A DNA stretch of 64,000 bases from Eunapius fragilis (lineage: Eukaryota; Porifera; Demospongiae; Spongillida; Spongillidae): contig OY811984.1 of NCBI GenBank assembly GCA_963681505.1, forward strand, positions 5,641,878-5,705,877. The letters are read 5' to 3'. Both the position numbers and the translations under genes were made by a program. The notes beneath the pieces were generated by a model. That model was given only the letters and a program-made list of their open reading frames with translations, was not told the origin of the DNA and did no database searches. Positions 3,626 to 16,634 of the stretch are shown here, in pieces. Each line of letters starts with the position of its first letter. Within the stretch, counting starts at the first letter, position 1.

Positions 3626-3693
3626 GACCCTATTCTACGTAATCCATCCACTGCTATGGCGTGGGTCTGGATACAAGACTACATATGCCTATG
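3626..3693. repeat. Relic end of a transposon related to the 4137-9230 element
   Basis: Read on the minus strand, this stretch starts TAGTCTTGTATCCAGACCCA and ends AGGGTCTGG, with GGATGGATTACGTAG-like sequence between. That is the order of motifs found in the 86-bp inverted repeat of the large element 450 bp away, but diverged. It may be a solo end or the edge of an older family member. The rest of 3316-4136 shows nothing I can name. Confidence 0.55.
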
Positions 3694-4136
3694 AAAACAT
3701 GGCGCGTGTATTAATTGGAAAGCGTAATTTATCGTTTCAGGTGTGTCTTGAAGCCAGATGATTGCTGGTACTACTGCATATGTTTATAATAACATTAGAT
3801 GTAAGTATCTTGCAAGGCACATCGTTGAACATATATGGTGTCGATAATTAGGCTAGCCGCCATGACTACACCATATACCGTAACGCTCTAATTATCAAAC
3901 TAATTGTGTGGTAGTGGTTAAATGCACTAGTTAGTGACGTCACATCCGGAGTATAATTTTTAGCCGAGTGAAGCCGAGCAATATAATATGTCTCTCTATT
4001 TTGCGTTTGTGTTGGCCATTTTCATGGCTGTTGTACATAGCGGGTCAGCTGGTAAGTCTCGGTTGCATCTTTGTGTTGGGAACAGGAATGGCTATCTATT
4101 CGCATGAACGCATGCGCGCGTGCATCGTGCAACTTG

Positions 4137-4222
4137 TAGTCTCGTACCCAGACCCATGACGTCACAGCTGCGGATGGATTACATCACCGCTACGCTCGGC
4201 AAGGGTCTGGCAAACCGTACGG
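4137..4222 (+). repeat. Left terminal inverted repeat (86 bp)
   Basis: It is identical to the reverse complement of 9145-9230. It contains the palindrome TGACGTCA (a consensus CREB/ATF site) and a shorter internal inverted pair, CCAGACCC near the outer end and GGGTCTGG near the inner end, which could be a bipartite protein-binding site. It lies 106 bp upstream of the start codon of the DUF6589-like gene. Confidence 0.92.
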
Positions 4223-4328
4223 GAAAAATCTGTGTTCGTGTTTATCATGAATTTAATTTAACGTAGCCTATTCACTAACCACTTCCGACCGTGAATTAAC
4301 GCAATTTCTTTTTACTCGAAATTTCAAC

Positions 4329-7300
4329 ATGTGGAGTCCATATCAATGTCGGTGCTGCGGGACGGTGGTTACCAACCATAGGAACCGAAGGGTGCTGCAC
4401 TGTTACGCTGATGGCAACGAGGGTTCTTCCATTTATGGATATATGTTGCGTTTGGTTAGTACAGGAAACTTAAGTGCCAGAAATCGCGAACGCTTTGGAG
4501 AACTGGATATATCAGTAAAAGGTCTGGATAAGGTATACATATGTAAAGCCTGCTTCGTAGCTGTCGATAAAGCTATGAAACTTAATGAACAGCTTCGCAA
4601 TTTGACTGTTACCGTGCAGACAGCAGAGAATGTCATACTTTCAATGTTGACAAACCTTTACGTTGGAGGAGATGAGACATTAAGTATTGAAGATCCACAC
4701 GCTAATTCGCCTTGCACATCAACAAGTGTTCCAAGACTTCTATATCCATTGCTTCATGAGAAAACCAAAAAGAAATCTCCAGATGTTGTTGTAAGTTCAA
4801 TAATAGCTATCAAATATCTGGTAATGTTAGCAAATAATTTATTTTTAAGGTCACTGTCAAGTACAGAAAGGAAAGATCATATTCACTGAAAGGCACCCCA
4901 CAGAGAGTCACCAAAAGCATTGTTCGTGGTAATAGGCAAAGTGCGCTAAAGCAATTACTTGGCACATGTTCTATGCAAAAGTTTGCTGCACATTATATTA
5001 GCAAATTCATTCAGAAAGAATTAAAGTTCATGTGTTCTAACCAATTAAAATCTATGCTGAGGGATCATTCTAAATTAGCATTGGCAAATTTTTCATGGGA
5101 TTCAATTCTACTTGAACTGGAAAAGAGGTGCCCTTTGCTATTCACTGTTTTACGCAATTGTATACCTATATCTTCAAACCATTTACTGTGTGTAATCTTT
5201 TCAATTTTACTTAAAGGTTGTAACTCACATGTGAATCTTATGCAGTTTATAGTTTCAATTTTGATGTACACTGGACATACAGGAAAACTGGTAAGTAAAT
5301 TATGTTATGATCATGTATAATTGAACTCTATTGTTCATAACCTACTAGGCATTTACTAGGCTAAATAAGTTAGGATTGTGTATGTCACGGCAATCAACAG
5401 TAACACTGCTAGATGACATTGGCTATGAACATGATGAACTGGTTATTCAGTGGAGAAATTTCTTGTTTTCAAGAATCAATGTGCAAGCAGCACAGGTAAG
5501 TTACTTTGTCATGTGCATGTGCAAGAATACCACAATTTCATTTTTTGCAGTATGCAAAAACACACTGGATACAGCAGATTTGCGAAGATGATGATGAAAC
5601 ATCATCTGAAAGTTGCATGGAAATTCCTTCACCAGTTACTTCACCTTCTCCACCACCTTTTTCTCCTTTATTACTGAACTGTGGTGAGTATGACACAGAA
5701 GAAACAGTTAGTTGTTCAACGGATCATCAGTCAAGTATTGACAGTGAAGATGAACATGTTAATGCTGATCAAATGCCTGGACATGTGTCTGAAATAGATG
5801 AAACATTTGATGATTCAACAGAAGTACAATCACCTAACATAATGGAAGTTAAGGAATGTAGTCAGTCAGTGGATTGGAAGGGTTTCAAGATTGTAGGTGA
5901 CAATTTGGATAAAAATTACAAACCCAGGCATCAGACATTAACTCACCAAAATCAGTCTATGCATTTTTTTCAATCATTTGCAGTTATGGATCGCGTTAAT
6001 CTATCAGAATACTCTGATATTCCACCAGTTCAACATATTTCTGAACAAATAATCAAGAGCACCTTCATTCCTTCTGATGACGAACAAATCATTCTCAGAT
6101 CACATTTTGTTGTACTTATTGCTCGCGTATTAGTTGAATGTATCCCATGCTTCGCAAAGTTTAAAGACATAGTCCCTAAACATATAACTCATCAGCACTA
6201 CTCAGAAATGTGCACAAAGTCAAAAGTGGTATGTAATATAATAAATACATATCTCAATGATTATACAAAGTTCCTTCTACCAGGTGCCACTTGGAGTACT
6301 ACTAAAAAACGAAAACTTCTTGGATGAAATGTCTGACATTTTGGACCATCATAGTACCTATGTGCCCATGAAAGAAATTGTGGAAGAACAAGATGGAGAT
6401 CATTTAAAAATGCACTATTTCCATCATATTCTGTTTGGTGGGGATCAAGTAACAGCATCTCGTACAAGATCTGCAAAGAGAATGCGCCAAAATGCTGAAC
6501 TTGGGAAAGCAAAACTGCAGGGCTTCATACCAATCATAGAGGATTGGCATGCCAAAGTAGTTCTATTAGAGGTGAAGACTTTGTTATGCAAGAGCATGAT
6601 CATCTTAATGCCTGCAAATGTACTTATCTAACACTCTTATTTTTATAGGTGATATGGAGCAGACTTTACACCAAAAGTACCAGCATGGAAAAAGGAACTT
6701 TGCTGCAGTTGAAAAATCTAATTCATAGGACAAGTGTTCCAAGAGTCCCGAAAAACAATGTTCATGCTGCAGAAGATTTTTTGAATGTTGTTTTGAAAAG
6801 CCACATAATAGTTGCAGCTATGAAGCATTTTAGGTTGTGCACCCTTCAAGACTGTCCAGACCAAACATTTATTCCAGAAGACATATTGTTGCACACTGAT
6901 GAGGAGAAATGGCAGATATTGTCATCAGAAATTGAAGGCATTATAGATAAGCATGTTGATTTCTCACTACTATCTACCAACAAAACAAGTAATATTGATG
7001 GTGTGCTAAACTATGCACGTCATGTTCTTTCCCTAGGACTTCTCCACGCTGAATTCGATGATGCAATTCATGAAGGAGATGGTGTAAGAGTACTTCAGTG
7101 TTGGAAAATTTTCTTACCTTTATTTAAATGTGCCAATCGTAAAAATTACGCTATTGAGTCCCTCAATTTACTATGGCAATTCCATATAGCACTTTCACCT
7201 AGGCAAGCCATGCAACTTATGTGGTCCAGGTTTATTAATACTCAAGGAAAGCCTGGTTGCAATTTACCTTGTGATTTACATATGGAACACTTAAATAAAG

Positions 7301-7629
7301 CTTGTAAAAGTGCCATTTCAAGTCTAGGTGCAAATCCTACTAAGGAGTCCATCAGTCGAGTGGGGAAGTGTATTGGACCATTGGTTGCAATTACAAGTCA
7401 TTTTGATAGTGAGAGTAATATTGTTAATCTACATGGAAAGCATTCAGAAGCAGCAACACAGAAGGATATAGAAGTGATCGTAAAAGCTTTATTGCATGAA
7501 GATGTTTTTGGACAAAATGATGATCGAAAACACAAATCTTTTCAGAAATTGCCCACCAGTGTCTATATGAATATGACTCCTGAAGCATTGCTGGTGTACA
7601 TCAAGTCACAACTTGGTATTAGCTCATAG
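4329..7629 (+). CDS. DUF6589-like transposon protein (putative transposase), 998 aa
   Basis: Six exons (4329-4790, 4850-5290, 5349-5495, 5551-6228, 6284-6571, 6649-7629) join in one open frame of 998 residues. All five introns are phase 0 and 55-77 bp long. The N-terminus has a Cys-pair zinc-binding module (CRCCG near residue 8, CKACF near residue 75). An acidic Ser-rich linker follows, then FGGDQVTASRTRSAKRMRQN near residue 520, and a C-terminal block with ESLNLLWQFHIALSPRQA, WSRFINTQGKPGCN and DLHMEHLNKACK. From memory these C-terminal blocks are typical of proteins annotated DUF6589 in cnidarians, fish and fungi. The FGGDQ-T-R motif is a plausible part of an RNase H-like catalytic core. 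Calling it the transposase is inference from its place inside perfect inverted repeats. Confidence 0.8.
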
Positions 7630-7710
7630 GTTTGGAGTTTGTTGTACTGTACTGGATTACAATACATTGAGTTCATTCACTTTTATGTATCATGATGAAA
7701 GTAAAAAATA

Positions 7711-9058
7711 TTATGCACAACTTCCACACTTACAAACACGCTTACATACATCACAACATTTGCATCCATCAGCAGTTATGTTTAGCAATGATGCATCACA
7801 AAATTCAGAAAAAAGCACTTTTCTTCTGCACAAAGTTGTATTAGAACAATAATCTATCATAGCCTTTGAGGTGTGATGATTATCAGAAGGCGAGTAGTAG
7901 ACAACTGACCAAGATTGATGGCCATCACGTCCTGCTCTACCAGTTTGTTGAACCTGGCTCTCAATATCCTCTGCAGGACCCCAGTGAATAATGTGTCTTA
8001 CATTTGGGCAGTCAATTCCCATACCAAAAGCAGTTGTGGCCACAACTACTCTTAAAGTGCTGTCTGGGTCTGCAAATGACGATACAATGTGCTGCTTAAC
8101 ATAAGCATCAGTGCATCGTGTGTACATGTCAACAAGCCTGTATTTTGCTAAGTTTGGTTTCCCAGTAGGGTATGTGAAAGAAGTACCCAGAGCCTTTTCA
8201 AAGTGTTCATAAAAGGAAGCAACATCCAACAGTTTACGACAGTACACCAAAACCCGTTCAGCTTTATTCTTGTATTGAAGAAGCTCACATGCAATTTTCT
8301 GAACAATGGCACTTATTTGTGGCTTCTCTTTAACTTCATAATATATATTACTTTTGAGTGGAGGTTCATAAATAATGGCAGGATCATCCATGCACAGCCG
8401 AGAAATGACTTGCTGCCTCGTATCAGCTGTAGCTGTTGCTGTCAGTGCCATTATCCTTACATGGGAAGGCAGCAAACTTCTTATCATTCCTATATGCCTA
8501 AAATCCTTTCGAAACATATCACCCCTGAAAAAAGAAGGTATAATCCGGCGTTATTGAAAAGCCTAATACTCACCATGTTTTCACGCAGTGAGCTTCATCC
8601 ACAACCAGTGCTACTAAATCTTCTTGGTACTTAGAGGAGAGAAGCGCATCATGCCACTGTCTGCTTCGAAACAGTGCCTCTGGAGTTACAAACACCAATT
8701 GATATTCACCATCTGCGATTCTGCGCCTATCACTACTGGATACTTCCTCTTGATGGTTTCCAACATACTGTGTCAACAAGCCCAGTGCAGAATACTTGCT
8801 CACCTGATCCATCATCAGTGATACTAAAGGGGACACGCAGAGTACGATACATGTCCTCTCTTTCTTGCGCAAGCGGTCAAACACGTATGGCAGTAGAACA
8901 TAGCACAACGTCTTCCCATATCCGGTTGGTAGTATTACGAAACAGTCGCGACCCTTCACAAACGTTTTTATTGCCTCCTCTTGTTTTTCCTTGAGCCTCT
9001 CCACTCCCAGCGCAAGCTTAGCGTACGTTATGGCATCCTCAACTATATCGCCGTCCAT
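7711..9058 (-). CDS. Transposon-borne RecQ-family DNA helicase, 432 aa
   Basis: Two exons (9058-8574 and 8524-7711) are joined through a 49-bp intron that splits the Trp codon of DEAHCVKTW/GDMFRKDF, exactly at the canonical RecQ motif II. Visible motifs: Walker A PTGYGKT (residues 44-50), DEAH (154-157), LTATATADTRQQV (motif III), a VVVATTAFGMGID helicase motif V and QQTGRAGRDG (motif VI). A Cys-containing zinc region follows (CRRKVLFSEFC, then CKCCDVCKRVCKCGSC). It lacks HRDC and nuclease domains and is shorter than host RECQL/BLM/WRN. It ends 81 bp from the DUF6589-like gene and starts 86 bp inside the right inverted repeat. The likely role is unwinding or repair of transposition intermediates, which is inference. 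Confidence 0.9.
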
Positions 9059-9144
9059 TGTTATGATAACGTGACCCTATGTTTTGGGAAGTGACGTCAT
9101 AATTAAAAGCGCGCCTGCATTCCATCGAGTCACACACGTAAGAC

Positions 9145-9230
9145 CCGTACGGTTTGCCAGACCCTTGCCGAGCGTAGCGGTGATGTAATCCATCCGCAGC
9201 TGTGACGTCATGGGTCTGGGTACGAGACTA
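9145..9230 (-). repeat. Right terminal inverted repeat (86 bp)
   Basis: It is the exact reverse complement of 4137-4222, including the TGACGTCA palindrome. Its inner edge lies 86 bp upstream of the helicase start codon, so the repeat probably doubles as that gene's promoter. Bases 9231-9400 beyond it show no gene. Confidence 0.92.
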
Positions 9231-9429
9231 ATGGCTAGCTGCGCTATAGTAATCAAAGACCAGGCAGACCAGGTCGACTCGGCAAACGAATTCACATGCA
9301 AAGGAGTGCCGAAGAAGAGGAAAGCGTCAGCGATTACAGATTTCGTTACGTACCCCCTAGCTGGTCGGGAGGGGGGCACCCTCTCCCGGGGCGGCGCCAC
9401 TACTACTTTGCCCCACCTACAGCCACACC

Positions 9430-11024: not shown

Positions 11025-14000
11025 GTAGCTAGTCACAAGGGACATGGTTAACAAAGGGTTCAACCATTCAGTAGTACCTGTATCCTAAATCTGGCGGCCT
11101 GGGCTGCTGCTCTTCTAGGACAATGAGAATCCTTATCCTCCTCAATGATAGGATCAACCAAACGCTCTCCTTGGTCAGTGGCTGGTTCTTGCAATCCTGG
11201 AAGGTACAACATCAGTCTCAAGTGGATAGATGTGCTGAACTGGTCGCCTCAACAGTATTGGACGTCTATCACCTGATTGCACGTGTAGGGATGCCCCCCT
11301 TACATTTCCATCTGAACCATGTAGCAACTCCTCAACTCGACCCATTCGCCACAAGGACCATGGTTTGTTAGGCTCATGAATCAGCACTACATCTCCCACA
11401 GCGATAGCATTGTTGGTAGGCCTTGCTTGTAAGTTACGGTGACTCTCTCTCAATCCGGTGAGATACTCAGCCTTCCATCTTTCCCAGAAGTGGTGCAGAA
11501 TTCTGTTTAGATAGACCATCCGCTGCGTCAGGCCAGTTTTGTCAGGATTGGTTTTTTTCTGAAGTCTGGGTCTGTCTCACTGTTCACTGAATCAGGTAAA
11601 TTGAGCAGACGGCGACCAACAAGCAAGTGGGATGGTATGAGCCGTTCATCCACATCCTCTGATGACACATAAGAAACGGGGCGAGAGTTGAGTGTGGCTT
11701 CGACCTCCACCAGAACTGTGAACAATTCATCATGTGACAATCTGGCTTGCCCAACGACCTTCAGCAGGCATCTCTTAACAAGCTGAACCATCCTCTCATA
11801 GAACCCTCCCCACCACGGTGCCTTCTCCAGAATGAACATCCATTGCATGTGAAGGTTCTTGAAGTGCTATTGTGTCTCTGGCATGCCTAGGAGCGAGGTC
11901 ACCATCTTACTGGCAGATCTAAATGTCTTGCTGTTGTCTGAGACAATCTTGCAGGGAATGCCGCGCCTAGAAGTAAATCGCCTCAAGCATCGGATGAACG
12001 TTTCTGCTGTTAAGTCTGGAACTAACTCCAAATGGACAGCTCGAACAACGCAACAAGTGAAAAGACAGATCCATATCTTATCACCATTCCTCAAAAACAG
12101 AGGCCCAATGTAATCGACTCCAGTGAAACTAAATGGCAGTGACACTTGTGTTCTGAAGTCAGGCAAAGGAGGAGGAGGTGGTCCAACAATAGGTTTGGAG
12201 TTAAACCGTTTGCAAACCATACACTCATGTACCAGTCTCCGCACAAATTGTCTCCCCTTCACTATCCAAAACCTTGACCGCAGTTCAGTGAGGGTTGCCT
12301 TAACTCCACTGTGCATAACTCTAGCGTGGCAGTCTCTCACAATCAGCGTGGTGAAGTAGTTCGACTTATCCAGAAGAATAGGATGCTTGCTTGATTCGGG
12401 TAGGTCAGCATGATGCAATCTCCCCTTGCATCTCCAAACACCATCTTTGTCACAAAATACAGCAAGTTGTTGATAGTGTACATTAAACTTCTCGTCATGC
12501 ACAAAGGTTTGTGACAACTTGATCCAGCTCAACTCTGCATTAGCAATATCTACTGTGCTAATCATTGCTGTCATCTCTTCACTCTTTGCCCTTGACCTTA
12601 GAAGCGCAACAAACTTCATTACGAGAGCCGTCACCTTGAGAAGGCGCTTGAGCGTACTAAAGTCTTCACACTTTATGGCATCATCCAGACGAGCAGAAGC
12701 ATGGGTCAATAAGTTATGGATGCCTTGAGGGTGAGCCTCAGTCTTCAGTTCTGCCAAGCACTCCTCTGGGACAACTTCTGAAGCAGAATCACAGTTCAAT
12801 TGCTCAGATTCATAAATGGTTCATAAATGTGATAGGGTATCGTGAGCCACAATGTGCTCTCGGTCAGCTCAGAAAGATCGACTCCTCTTGAAGGAAGATC
12901 AGCCGGATTTGTTTCGCCAGAACAATGGTGCCAATACTTGGTAGGAATCAAGGATCGAATTTCATTGACATGATTTTGAACAAATTGTCTGCATTCTTTC
13001 TCATACCCCCTTATCCAGAACAGTGCAATTTTTGAGTCAGTATAACACACTGGTTCACCAAGTACTAACTCTGGTCCTAGGGCACTGGCTACACTGGATA
13101 ATAGTCGAGAAAGAAGAAGAGCAGCCAACAGTTCAAGCCTTGGTATCGCCTGCGTGTTCAGAGGGGTGACCCTTGTTCTTGAAACTACTAATCGTACGAC
13201 ACGCAAGTCTCATTTTCAGGTAAACAACTGCTGCATATGCCTTTTGTGAAGCGTCACAAAACCCAACGAGGTTGCAAGAAGTAGGCTTGTCAAGACCATG
13301 GAATTAGCAACGTGGAACATAGAGTAGTTGTGACTGTCGAAGACCCAACAGCAATCTATTCCACTTCTTCAGTAATTCACCATCTAAGTGAGCATCCCAG
13401 TCCAGCTTGGCAGCGCAAATAGCATCTTAAATCGCACTGTTACAGGCGAAACAAATCCCAGAGGGTCATAGAACCTTGTACATAGCCCAATAATGTTCCG
13501 TTTGGTGGGTTCTGTAACGGTAGCGATACTGTGAAGGTTGCTGATATCAAAGATGAGGACATCATCTCTTGGTCTCCACTTCACCCCCAACACCTTCGCA
13601 GTCTCAGAGTTGTCCGACTGTTCATGCTCCCCTAGGGTGGTCTTCGTGTAGGATTCATCGTCATGTGTAAGTAGGCCATCACCAATCTCTGTTGTGGATG
13701 ATGTTTGAGAAGAAATGTGAGCTTGAACAGCTGACGAATTGGAGATGAACTTCCTGGGGTTGAATCCCGCTTCAGCCATACACTGCCTGGACTTAGTGTA
13801 CAATTCAATAGCTCCTTCTTCACTGTCTGATCCACAAGTAAGGTCATGGACGTAGATTGAACGGATGAGCCTTCCTACAAACAACGGATCGCTGAGTCGA
13901 TAACCCTCCACATGACGTCTGATCGTGGCGTTCAACAGGAAGGGACTAGAGGATACGCCAAATACAACACGAGCAAATCGCAGTGTGACAAGTCTGGGTA

Positions 14001-16634
14001 GTGGTGCCGTGACGTCGTCAACCCAGAGGAATCTCAGTGCAACAGATACCATCAGAAACACCTTTTCAATATCTGCAGTCAATGATCCGAAAAACACGAA
14101 ACCGAATCAGTATGTCCAGTATGTTTTGGCCAAAGGTTGGACCAGCATACAAGCAACAATTTAAGGGATGGTCCAGTGCTCTTGGCGGAAGCATCATATA
14201 CAATTTGCATCTTGGTCGTCTGTTTGTCCTCCCTAATGACTGCATGATGGGGAATGTAGTGTGTTGCTCCAATCGGTCCATCATGAGGGTTTTCGACGAT
14301 TTCTACTATGCCACTCTTGATCTTTTCTCGAATAACAGCATCATACTGGGTCAAGACATGTGGCGTCTGGCGAAGTCGCTTAAGTAAGTTGAAGAGTCTC
14401 CTCTGGCTCAGTTCAAAGTTGTCAGGGAGCATGGGACGTGGTATCTTCCAAGGGAGACTCACACAGTACCGACCATCTTGAAATGAGATGCTCTCAACAA
14501 ACTTATCATACACAGAGTTTTCAACATCTACTATCCCAAGAGTGTCTAAATCCCAGAATGCTTGCAGCTTCTTTTCCAAGTCAGCGAGTCGATGGGGTAC
14601 CGAGTTGATGGATGTATCAACCTTCAAAACATGTGAGCAAGTCAGGCATGCCATTGATGGATCACGGTTAAGTCCAGGAACAGACCCAGAGAGAACCCAT
14701 CCTAACCTCGTCTCCATCTGTAGGCCCAGTGTTGCCACGCAGAATTCCTCCTGTGGCGAACTTCCAATACTGGTCCACTCCAATCAAGATACTCATCTTC
14801 AGTGCATCGCTTGAGTCCCATGAATCAGCTAGATCAAGTCCCTGTAGGTATGGAAACCGCTCAACTGCCCAATTTATTGGCTGTCAGATAGAGGCTCACA
14901 AATCATGGGAACACTAAACAAGGAAAGCTCGAAGTCCGTCCCCATCTTTGCCTTGAATTTGAGCTCCACAATATCACAGGTCTCCACCCTCTCAACTTGA
15001 GACCTGAACGTCTTGATTGACACTGCTTGCGACTGCTTCCTTGGTAACCTAAGAGAGTCTCTAAGCTTACTTGTGATGTTGGGCTATCTGGCTGCCGCTA
15101 TCGAGGATCAGTCTGATGACAGTGGTAGCATAGGGTCTATCAGCGGAGTACACAGTTGCAGTAGCTGTCTGCAGGAGGACAGGATTCTTCATGTCAATGT
15201 ACATGGACAATGTTGTCAATTGTGGTGATGACAGTGGCTGTGTCGGAGGGTAGTGCACCTGATGGACTTGTGCCTTGAGTCGTTCCGGAGCAGATGCTGG
15301 AATGGTGTCTTCCATTGCAGGTAGAACATCGAAGAGGAGATCTGCACTTCTTCGCCATGTGATATTTCTTCAGACACACTAAGCATCGTCCACCTTTCAA
15401 GAGTGCCTTTTTTCTTGCCTCCGGGTTACTCACTGTCCCACGACATGTGACTGCTCACAATAGCAGCAACCCTCAGTTGAAGGCGTCAGGAGTGCAGCTA
15501 CCGTAGGTTGCTCTCTGCTCTGTCTTTTATCACCCATACACAAACTTGCAGCTGCTCTCTCCCTGGCATCGATTTCCTTCTCAACTATCTTCATCACTGC
15601 GTCTAGTTTCCACTTATCCCAACAACTTCTCTGCTGACGGTGAGTCTAAGTTGCTTGTTCATGAAGACAGATGCCAACAATGTACCAAAGGATGACGATG
15701 GAATCCCAAGAGCATGCAAGCCTCGTACGTGAGACTCCATAAGGTTGTACAGCTGTCTGAGTCCCTTGTAGTTGTTCTGTGAAGCCACTGCCTCCAGGTT
15801 CATAAGCGTGTCCATGTGTGTGCTTACTATCGCCTGCTTGTTGCCAAAACGTTTCTTCAGGATAGTTATTGCCTCAGCATAGTTTGGGGATGAAAGTGTC
15901 AAGCCAGCTATTGCAGTTGCTGCAGGACCCTCTAACAGAGATCGAAGGTAAGTGAACTTGTCAATCGCAGATAAATCTGTGCTGTTATGGATAGCCGATT
16001 CATACGAATCCCAAAAGGTCATCCATTCTGTCAGTTCACCATCAAATCTCCTTAGTTCCAGTTTTGGAAGTCTCACCTTACTAGAGGTTGATCCTGGGTT
16101 GACAAGAGCTGCAGGTTCCGCGTTGCCAGGCGTGGTGTCACTTGAATCTCGAGTAGTTTCCGCTGTTCGCTGTTGTTGTTCACTCTGATTACCTGAAGAT
16201 GGTACTTCTGTGGAGGATGACGTGGTCGATTCCCGTGGTCGCGTATCGGTATGTCCATTCGCTGGAATGTTTTGCGCTGCACGTCCTCGTGGAGAGCTCA
16301 AATCCGAAAGCGCTTCTTGAATCTCCATCATCGTTGTCTCGATCAACTCTCTTGTTATGTCAGCTTGCTCAATTTCGTTGGCGATGTCATCTTGTTCTTC
16401 GGTCGCGACCAGAATTTCGCTATCAAGTGTTGAAATGATTCCGAGCTTTGTCTTTAAGTGACGTCAAATACTGGGTAAGCTTCGCTACGTTTATTTCGCC
16501 CTCCAGCATTTCCTGTGCCTGCGATGTAAATTATGCGTTTAATTAACGGAACCCCGATGATCGGCGCGTATCCGCTTCTTTTTCACGATTTCTTGCTCAG
16601 ACATACTGGTATAATCCCAGGCTCTAAAGGACCA

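Follow-up and report, generated by a model that had tools for sequence, protein, structure and literature searches.

Helicase-bearing DNA transposons

An AcademH lineage of the Academ superfamily was reportedly described by Kojima in 2020 (Mob DNA 11:15), under a title that names both animals and fungi. Among the closest described systems, AcademH is characterized in PMC10045372 by a helicase, a DDD/E-type transposase and target duplications of 9 or 10 bp, as against 3 or 4 bp for AcademX, and the difference in length is linked there to the helicase and nuclease. PMC9587614 describes further RecQ-bearing DNA transposons, namely, KolobokH and Kolobok-1_CCri, the latter with its RecQ on the complementary strand, and gives Kolobok duplications as specific for TTAA. 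Here, we describe an element from the freshwater sponge Eunapius fragilis that pairs a DUF6589 protein (gene 1) with a RecQ helicase (gene 2); it lies in a stretch of 64,000 nucleotides (contig OY811984.1, positions 5,641,878 to 5,705,877, forward strand), hereafter the window, to which the coordinates below refer. We consider it very likely that this is a cut-and-paste DNA transposon of AcademH type, young and probably still mobile, in which gene 1 supplies the transposase and gene 2 a RecQ helicase that travels with it. An earlier note, made from the sequence alone, had stressed how rarely transposons carry a helicase; this overstated the novelty, as AcademH and KolobokH had already been described.

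The element and its copies

The transposon spans 5,094 bp (4137-9230) and comprises perfect inverted ends enclosing two intact convergent genes. The left terminal inverted repeat (4137..4223, plus strand) is 87 bp long, begins TAGTCTCGTACCC and is shared with the other long copies; the right repeat (9144..9230, minus strand) is its exact complement, such that complementarity is 100% over 87 nt. The perfect identity claimed for the ends therefore stands, but not the claimed length of 86 bp. Gene 1 (4329..7629, plus strand) encodes 998 aa in six exons of predicted splicing (4329-4790, 4850-5290, 5349-5495, 5551-6228, 6284-6571 and 6649-7629), whereas gene 2, on the minus strand, encodes 432 aa in two (exon 1, 8574..9058; exon 2, 7711..8524), and 81 bp (7630..7710) separate the convergent stop codons. 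All of the introns are GT-AG and the spliced frames are free of internal stops, with exon borders predicted from the DNA alone; the sizes and layout are as first read.

Across the genome (218,937,333 bases in 24 contigs), the 87-bp end has at least 45 matches, and there are six long copies, in the window and on C3, C5, C6, C4 and C1, the latter five being 99.6-99.96% identical to the window copy over the aligned parts. Both genes are intact in four of the six: the window copy itself, the C3 and C5 copies (2 and 3 mismatches, respectively, over 5,094 bp), and the C6 copy, L063 (2 mismatches and 64 extra bases at the left end). The C4 copy (1 mismatch and a 20-bp deletion) has gene 1 alone open, and in the C1 copy (10 mismatches and insertions of 861 and 4 bases) both are broken. 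A copy on C8 has lost internal sequence, so that the beginnings of the two genes are joined; its other end falls within N. At the extreme, the tiny copies L067, L068 and L069 (126, 122 and 110 bp) consist of just two joined ends and are almost palindromic. The earlier note had asked whether other copies always hold both genes; the pair does recur in other copies, besides the C4 copy with gene 1 only, the broken C1 copy and the end-only copies. The 110-bp copy retains ~60 bp of one end and 49 bp of the other, and so the ends alone would suffice for movement, if the same transposase moved it.

The left end of L063 is partly repeated: after its initial 68 bp, the end begins anew and is then nearly complete, an arrangement that looks like template switching in repair. 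Additionally, six places match RecQ residues 4-80 only, at 66-69% identity (C7:4644843, C1:5404245, C4:439015, C4:529980, C4:3047594 and C4:11890775); these are perhaps non-autonomous elements that keep the helicase-side end.

Target duplications

A perfect 9-bp target duplication flanks 10 of the 12 copies at which both ends were read, these copies having been found by their exact end letters, a procedure that places older copies outside the scoring. The duplications are GCTTGCATG, CCTTGCGCC, ACCATAGAT, TCCACGAAC and GGGGCGCTT at five long copies, and GCCTGATAT, ACCCTACGT and GCCTGGGGC at the three tiny ones. A relative of 133 bp, nested in the C1 copy and matching the end over its initial 18 bp, is flanked by ACAAGACAT, and one copy from a second family (see below) by CCCCACGAA. 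A chance match of 9 bp would be expected at odds of ~4e-6 per copy. When the flanks of the C1 copy are joined, two paralogous places match across the junction, one at 96% and the other at 93%, in support of an insertion that duplicated 9 bp. Taken together with the near identity of the long copies, the duplications suggest that the family moved recently and is probably still mobile, in keeping with the youth that had been proposed for it. A letter common to the ten duplications was sought and rejected: C occupies position 2 in nine of them, without a matching G at position 8, in a comparison for which the strands were not in register with the element.

There are two exceptions. At the diverged copy L066, on C7, the flanks agree only in part; the other exception is the window copy, which is alone among the six long copies in lacking a perfect duplication and has unrelated flanks (tgcaacttg on the left and atggctagc on the right). 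A genome-wide search for the partner junctions of these two flanks gave no exact match next to any end. The joined flanks have 16 matches, of which 2 are the flanks themselves and 14 cover the right flank only, one of the latter (C8:9424389) reaching 5 bases into the left side too. The right flank (9231-9350) lies inside a dispersed repeat, as read at 4 of the 14 places, and the left flank lies outside it; the window contains no N. Since the right flank derives from the interior of a repeat to which the left does not belong, the likeliest explanation is that the original surroundings of the window copy on its left were lost or replaced after insertion, through deletion or through recombination between copies. 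The four members of the repeat that were read reach further left than does the portion in the right flank. The C4 copy was considered as a case with an empty site and set aside: 12 of 26 matches cross the junction, and the aligned place, C4:711625, is six bases short there. The earlier note had asked for empty sites with TA or longer duplications: the duplications are there, at 9 bp, C4 offers no clean empty site, and the flanks of the window copy, which form no duplication, do not amount to an empty site either.

The DUF6589 protein

The sole Pfam match in gene 1 is to DUF6589 (residues 518-937; E=3.5e-55), and the N-terminal region carries CxxC...CxxC. Structure models of two DUF6589 relatives, which stand in for the window protein at 43% and lower identity, align best with the P-element and hAT transposases, to which the sequence identity (P element and Hermes) is ~10%; one further Foldseek search gave no significant match. 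The proposed catalytic residues, all encoded on the plus strand, are Asp467 in GDNLDKN (codon 5899..5901), which is found in 11 of the 11 aligned rows with a letter there and precedes the stretch covered by the Pfam model; Asp630 in GGDQ (6443..6445; 16 of 16 rows); and Glu885 in CDLHMEH (7285..7287; 11 of the 11 rows with a letter there). Between the second Asp and the Glu there is an ExxH motif, with His665 present in 15 of 15 rows and Glu662 in 13 of 15 (Ser in the other two); C/DxxH at this place is the feature asked of the hAT, P, MuDR, Kolobok and Dada group. Based on the fold of the two relatives and the conserved D-D-E, the DUF6589 protein very probably supplies a DDE transposase, its catalysis being predicted, and we propose that it is a DDE enzyme of RNase H-like fold in which a long helical insertion precedes the catalytic Glu. 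The role proposed in the earlier note, and the RNase H-like core for which it suggested a search, are favoured by the models.

P-element and hAT insertions usually duplicate 8 bp, and their transposases are not known to have a helicase partner. Four DUF6589-related metagenome proteins (P0001, P0007, P0013 and P0016) are labelled 'L1 cell adhesion molecule like protein' by their source and are apparently misnamed. Viral contigs, searched with a single relative, yielded no locus.

The RecQ helicase

All nine of the RecQ motifs and clusters that were sought are present in gene 2, as had been claimed for the helicase motifs. Exon 1 carries the Walker A and DEAH motifs, and exon 2 motifs III-VI and the Cys cluster; the set reads KQEEAI, PTGYGKT, VSPLVSLMMDQ, VDEAHC, ALTATAT, VLVYC, VVVATTAFGMGID, QQTGRAGRDG and, at the C terminus, the Cys cluster. 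The matches in Pfam are to DEAD, Helicase_C, ResIII and RecQ_Zn_bind, with neither a winged-helix nor an HRDC match, and the closest solved chains are RecQ helicases (e.g. 1oyw, E=1.7e-46). Gene 2 is thus predicted to encode a compact 3'-5' RecQ-type helicase, made up of the RecQ motor and a zinc-binding Cys cluster. In a RecQ tree, the transposon RecQs split into several groups; the tree contains no host RecQ and is, therefore, silent on the origin of the helicase.

Conservation of the gene pair

The genome search with DUF6589 gave at least 116 matches (102 of 215 candidates scored), which resolve into 90 loci, and that with RecQ at least 120 matches (97 of 1000 candidates scored), which resolve into 86; DUF6589 has no match in 14 control genomes. 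A convergent RecQ lies within 5 kb at 67 of the 90 scored DUF6589 loci, against a chance expectation of 0.46, and a same-strand RecQ at one further locus, a rearranged copy on C22. These 68 paired loci use 66 distinct RecQ loci, two being counted twice, and the 67 convergent pairings include many copies of the same families and so are not 67 independent events. Among the matches listed, the remaining 22 DUF6589 loci, many of them fragments, have no RecQ within 5 kb, and 20 of the 86 RecQ loci, several of them short pieces, have no DUF6589 within the same distance.

The pair is also found in a second multicopy family, five copies of which share the terminal letters TAGTCTCG. The one copy read at both ends is 5,301 bp long, with 104-bp ends at 99% and a 9-bp duplication, and its genes have the same convergent layout, with 36-45% protein identity. 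The recurrence of both genes between matching ends in this family rules out the capture of host DNA by an unrelated short element, by which the earlier note would have been refuted; its other ground for refutation, that the two genes would never be found together elsewhere, likewise falls. Its two-gene mobile element is, instead, seen in multiple copies with 9-bp duplications, and in diverged families. Over seven families, the DUF6589 and RecQ distances covary with r=0.62, a value reached by 19 of 5040 relabelings; we prefer this to a correlation of 0.94 over nine loci, which is inflated by near-duplicate pairs. Between families, codon agreement is 0.49-0.81 at position 1 and 0.63-0.79 at position 2, but 0.31-0.49 at position 3 (overlapping matches may double-count some codons), and the greater agreement at the first two positions indicates that selection has kept both proteins. 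The pairing of DUF6589 with RecQ is old and not accidental.

Neighbouring features

Some 450 bp to the left of the element, positions 3639-3683 hold the decayed right end of a related element, with 2 mismatches in 18 bases (0.05 matches expected at 3 or fewer mismatches); no partner end for it was found within the window. By eye, positions 3991-4053 could be read as an exon for a signal peptide (MSLYFAFVLAIFMAVVHSGSA), with a GTAAGT donor after it and, on this basis, the element may sit in intron 1 of a host gene for a secreted protein. Further to the right, on the minus strand (11867-16463), there are frames that resemble, as judged by eye, integrase-like and gag-like pieces of a BEL/Pao-type retroelement.

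Placement among known transposons

The helicase, here of RecQ type, and the 9-bp duplications (perfect in 10 of 12 copies, absent from the window copy and imperfect in L066) match AcademH as reported, and the relatives' fold and conserved D-D-E would agree with its DDD/E-type transposase; in PMC10045372, these features go together in an animal DNA transposon. The element is, therefore, probably a new AcademH family, placed by reported AcademH features rather than by transposase phylogeny. What is new is the link between DUF6589 and a DDE transposase, the conservation of the convergent layout, and the availability of a young family in which the role of the helicase can be studied.

Alternatively, the element could represent a separate, undescribed superfamily that acquired a RecQ, with 9-bp duplications convergent with those of AcademH. 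The likeness to AcademH is one of reported features, with no Academ transposase sequence in the comparison, the closest fold is that of the P element and hAT, and a literature text search, with Repbase and most subscription papers outside its reach, found no mention of DUF6589, while the four papers that contain PF20231 bear titles on unrelated subjects. Nonetheless, the helicase, the 9-bp duplication, the animal host and the element length all fit the published accounts of AcademH or Academ, and we regard a separate superfamily as unlikely.

The helicase might also be a passenger, a captured host RecQ with no role in movement. The short, nearly end-only copies moved with 9-bp duplications, which means that movement does not require a helicase in cis, and the DUF6589 loci at which no RecQ is listed nearby point the same way. 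However, the convergent pair is kept at most of the loci and in diverged families, and both proteins are constrained at the codon level, whereas a useless passenger would be expected to decay; given this linkage and constraint, a passenger is the less likely role, and a rather improbable one. Placement near KolobokH or Kolobok-1_CCri is scarcely credible: despite the same RecQ partner and, in the latter, the same opposite-strand layout, PMC9587614 gives TTAA duplications for Kolobok, which the 9-bp duplications of varied sequence in the sponge exclude, and the RecQ of KolobokH is reported to lie downstream of the transposase domain rather than in a separate gene on the opposite strand.

Proposed mechanism and implications

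For the AcademH-type element favoured here, we envisage that the gene 1 transposase would bind the 87-bp ends, excise the element and insert it into target DNA at cuts staggered by 9 bp, the repair of which would generate the 9-bp duplications. The RecQ helicase would unwind DNA ends, or the self-complementary ends of the element, and thereby allow repair of the gaps and of the break at the donor site. We infer that its most likely role is this unwinding at the cut ends or donor break, permitting repair; repair synthesis at the ends may be hinted at by the 64-base partial end repeat of the C6 copy and by the end-to-end derivatives. More tentatively, DUF6589 could be the catalytic domain of a widespread group of helicase-partnered transposases, of which the sponge elements would be a distinct two-gene variant, with transposase and RecQ always separate, convergent and coevolved, and the helicase acting in trans, either in setting the 9-bp stagger or in its repair.

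DUF6589, a Pfam family of unknown function, thus gains a likely identity as a DDE transposase. Moreover, the sponge family offers near-identical intact, helicase-broken and tiny end-only copies as material on the role of RecQ in cut-and-paste transposition, and it bears on whether the helicase explains the duplications of 9-10 bp, as opposed to 3-4 bp, that are reported within Academ in PMC10045372.
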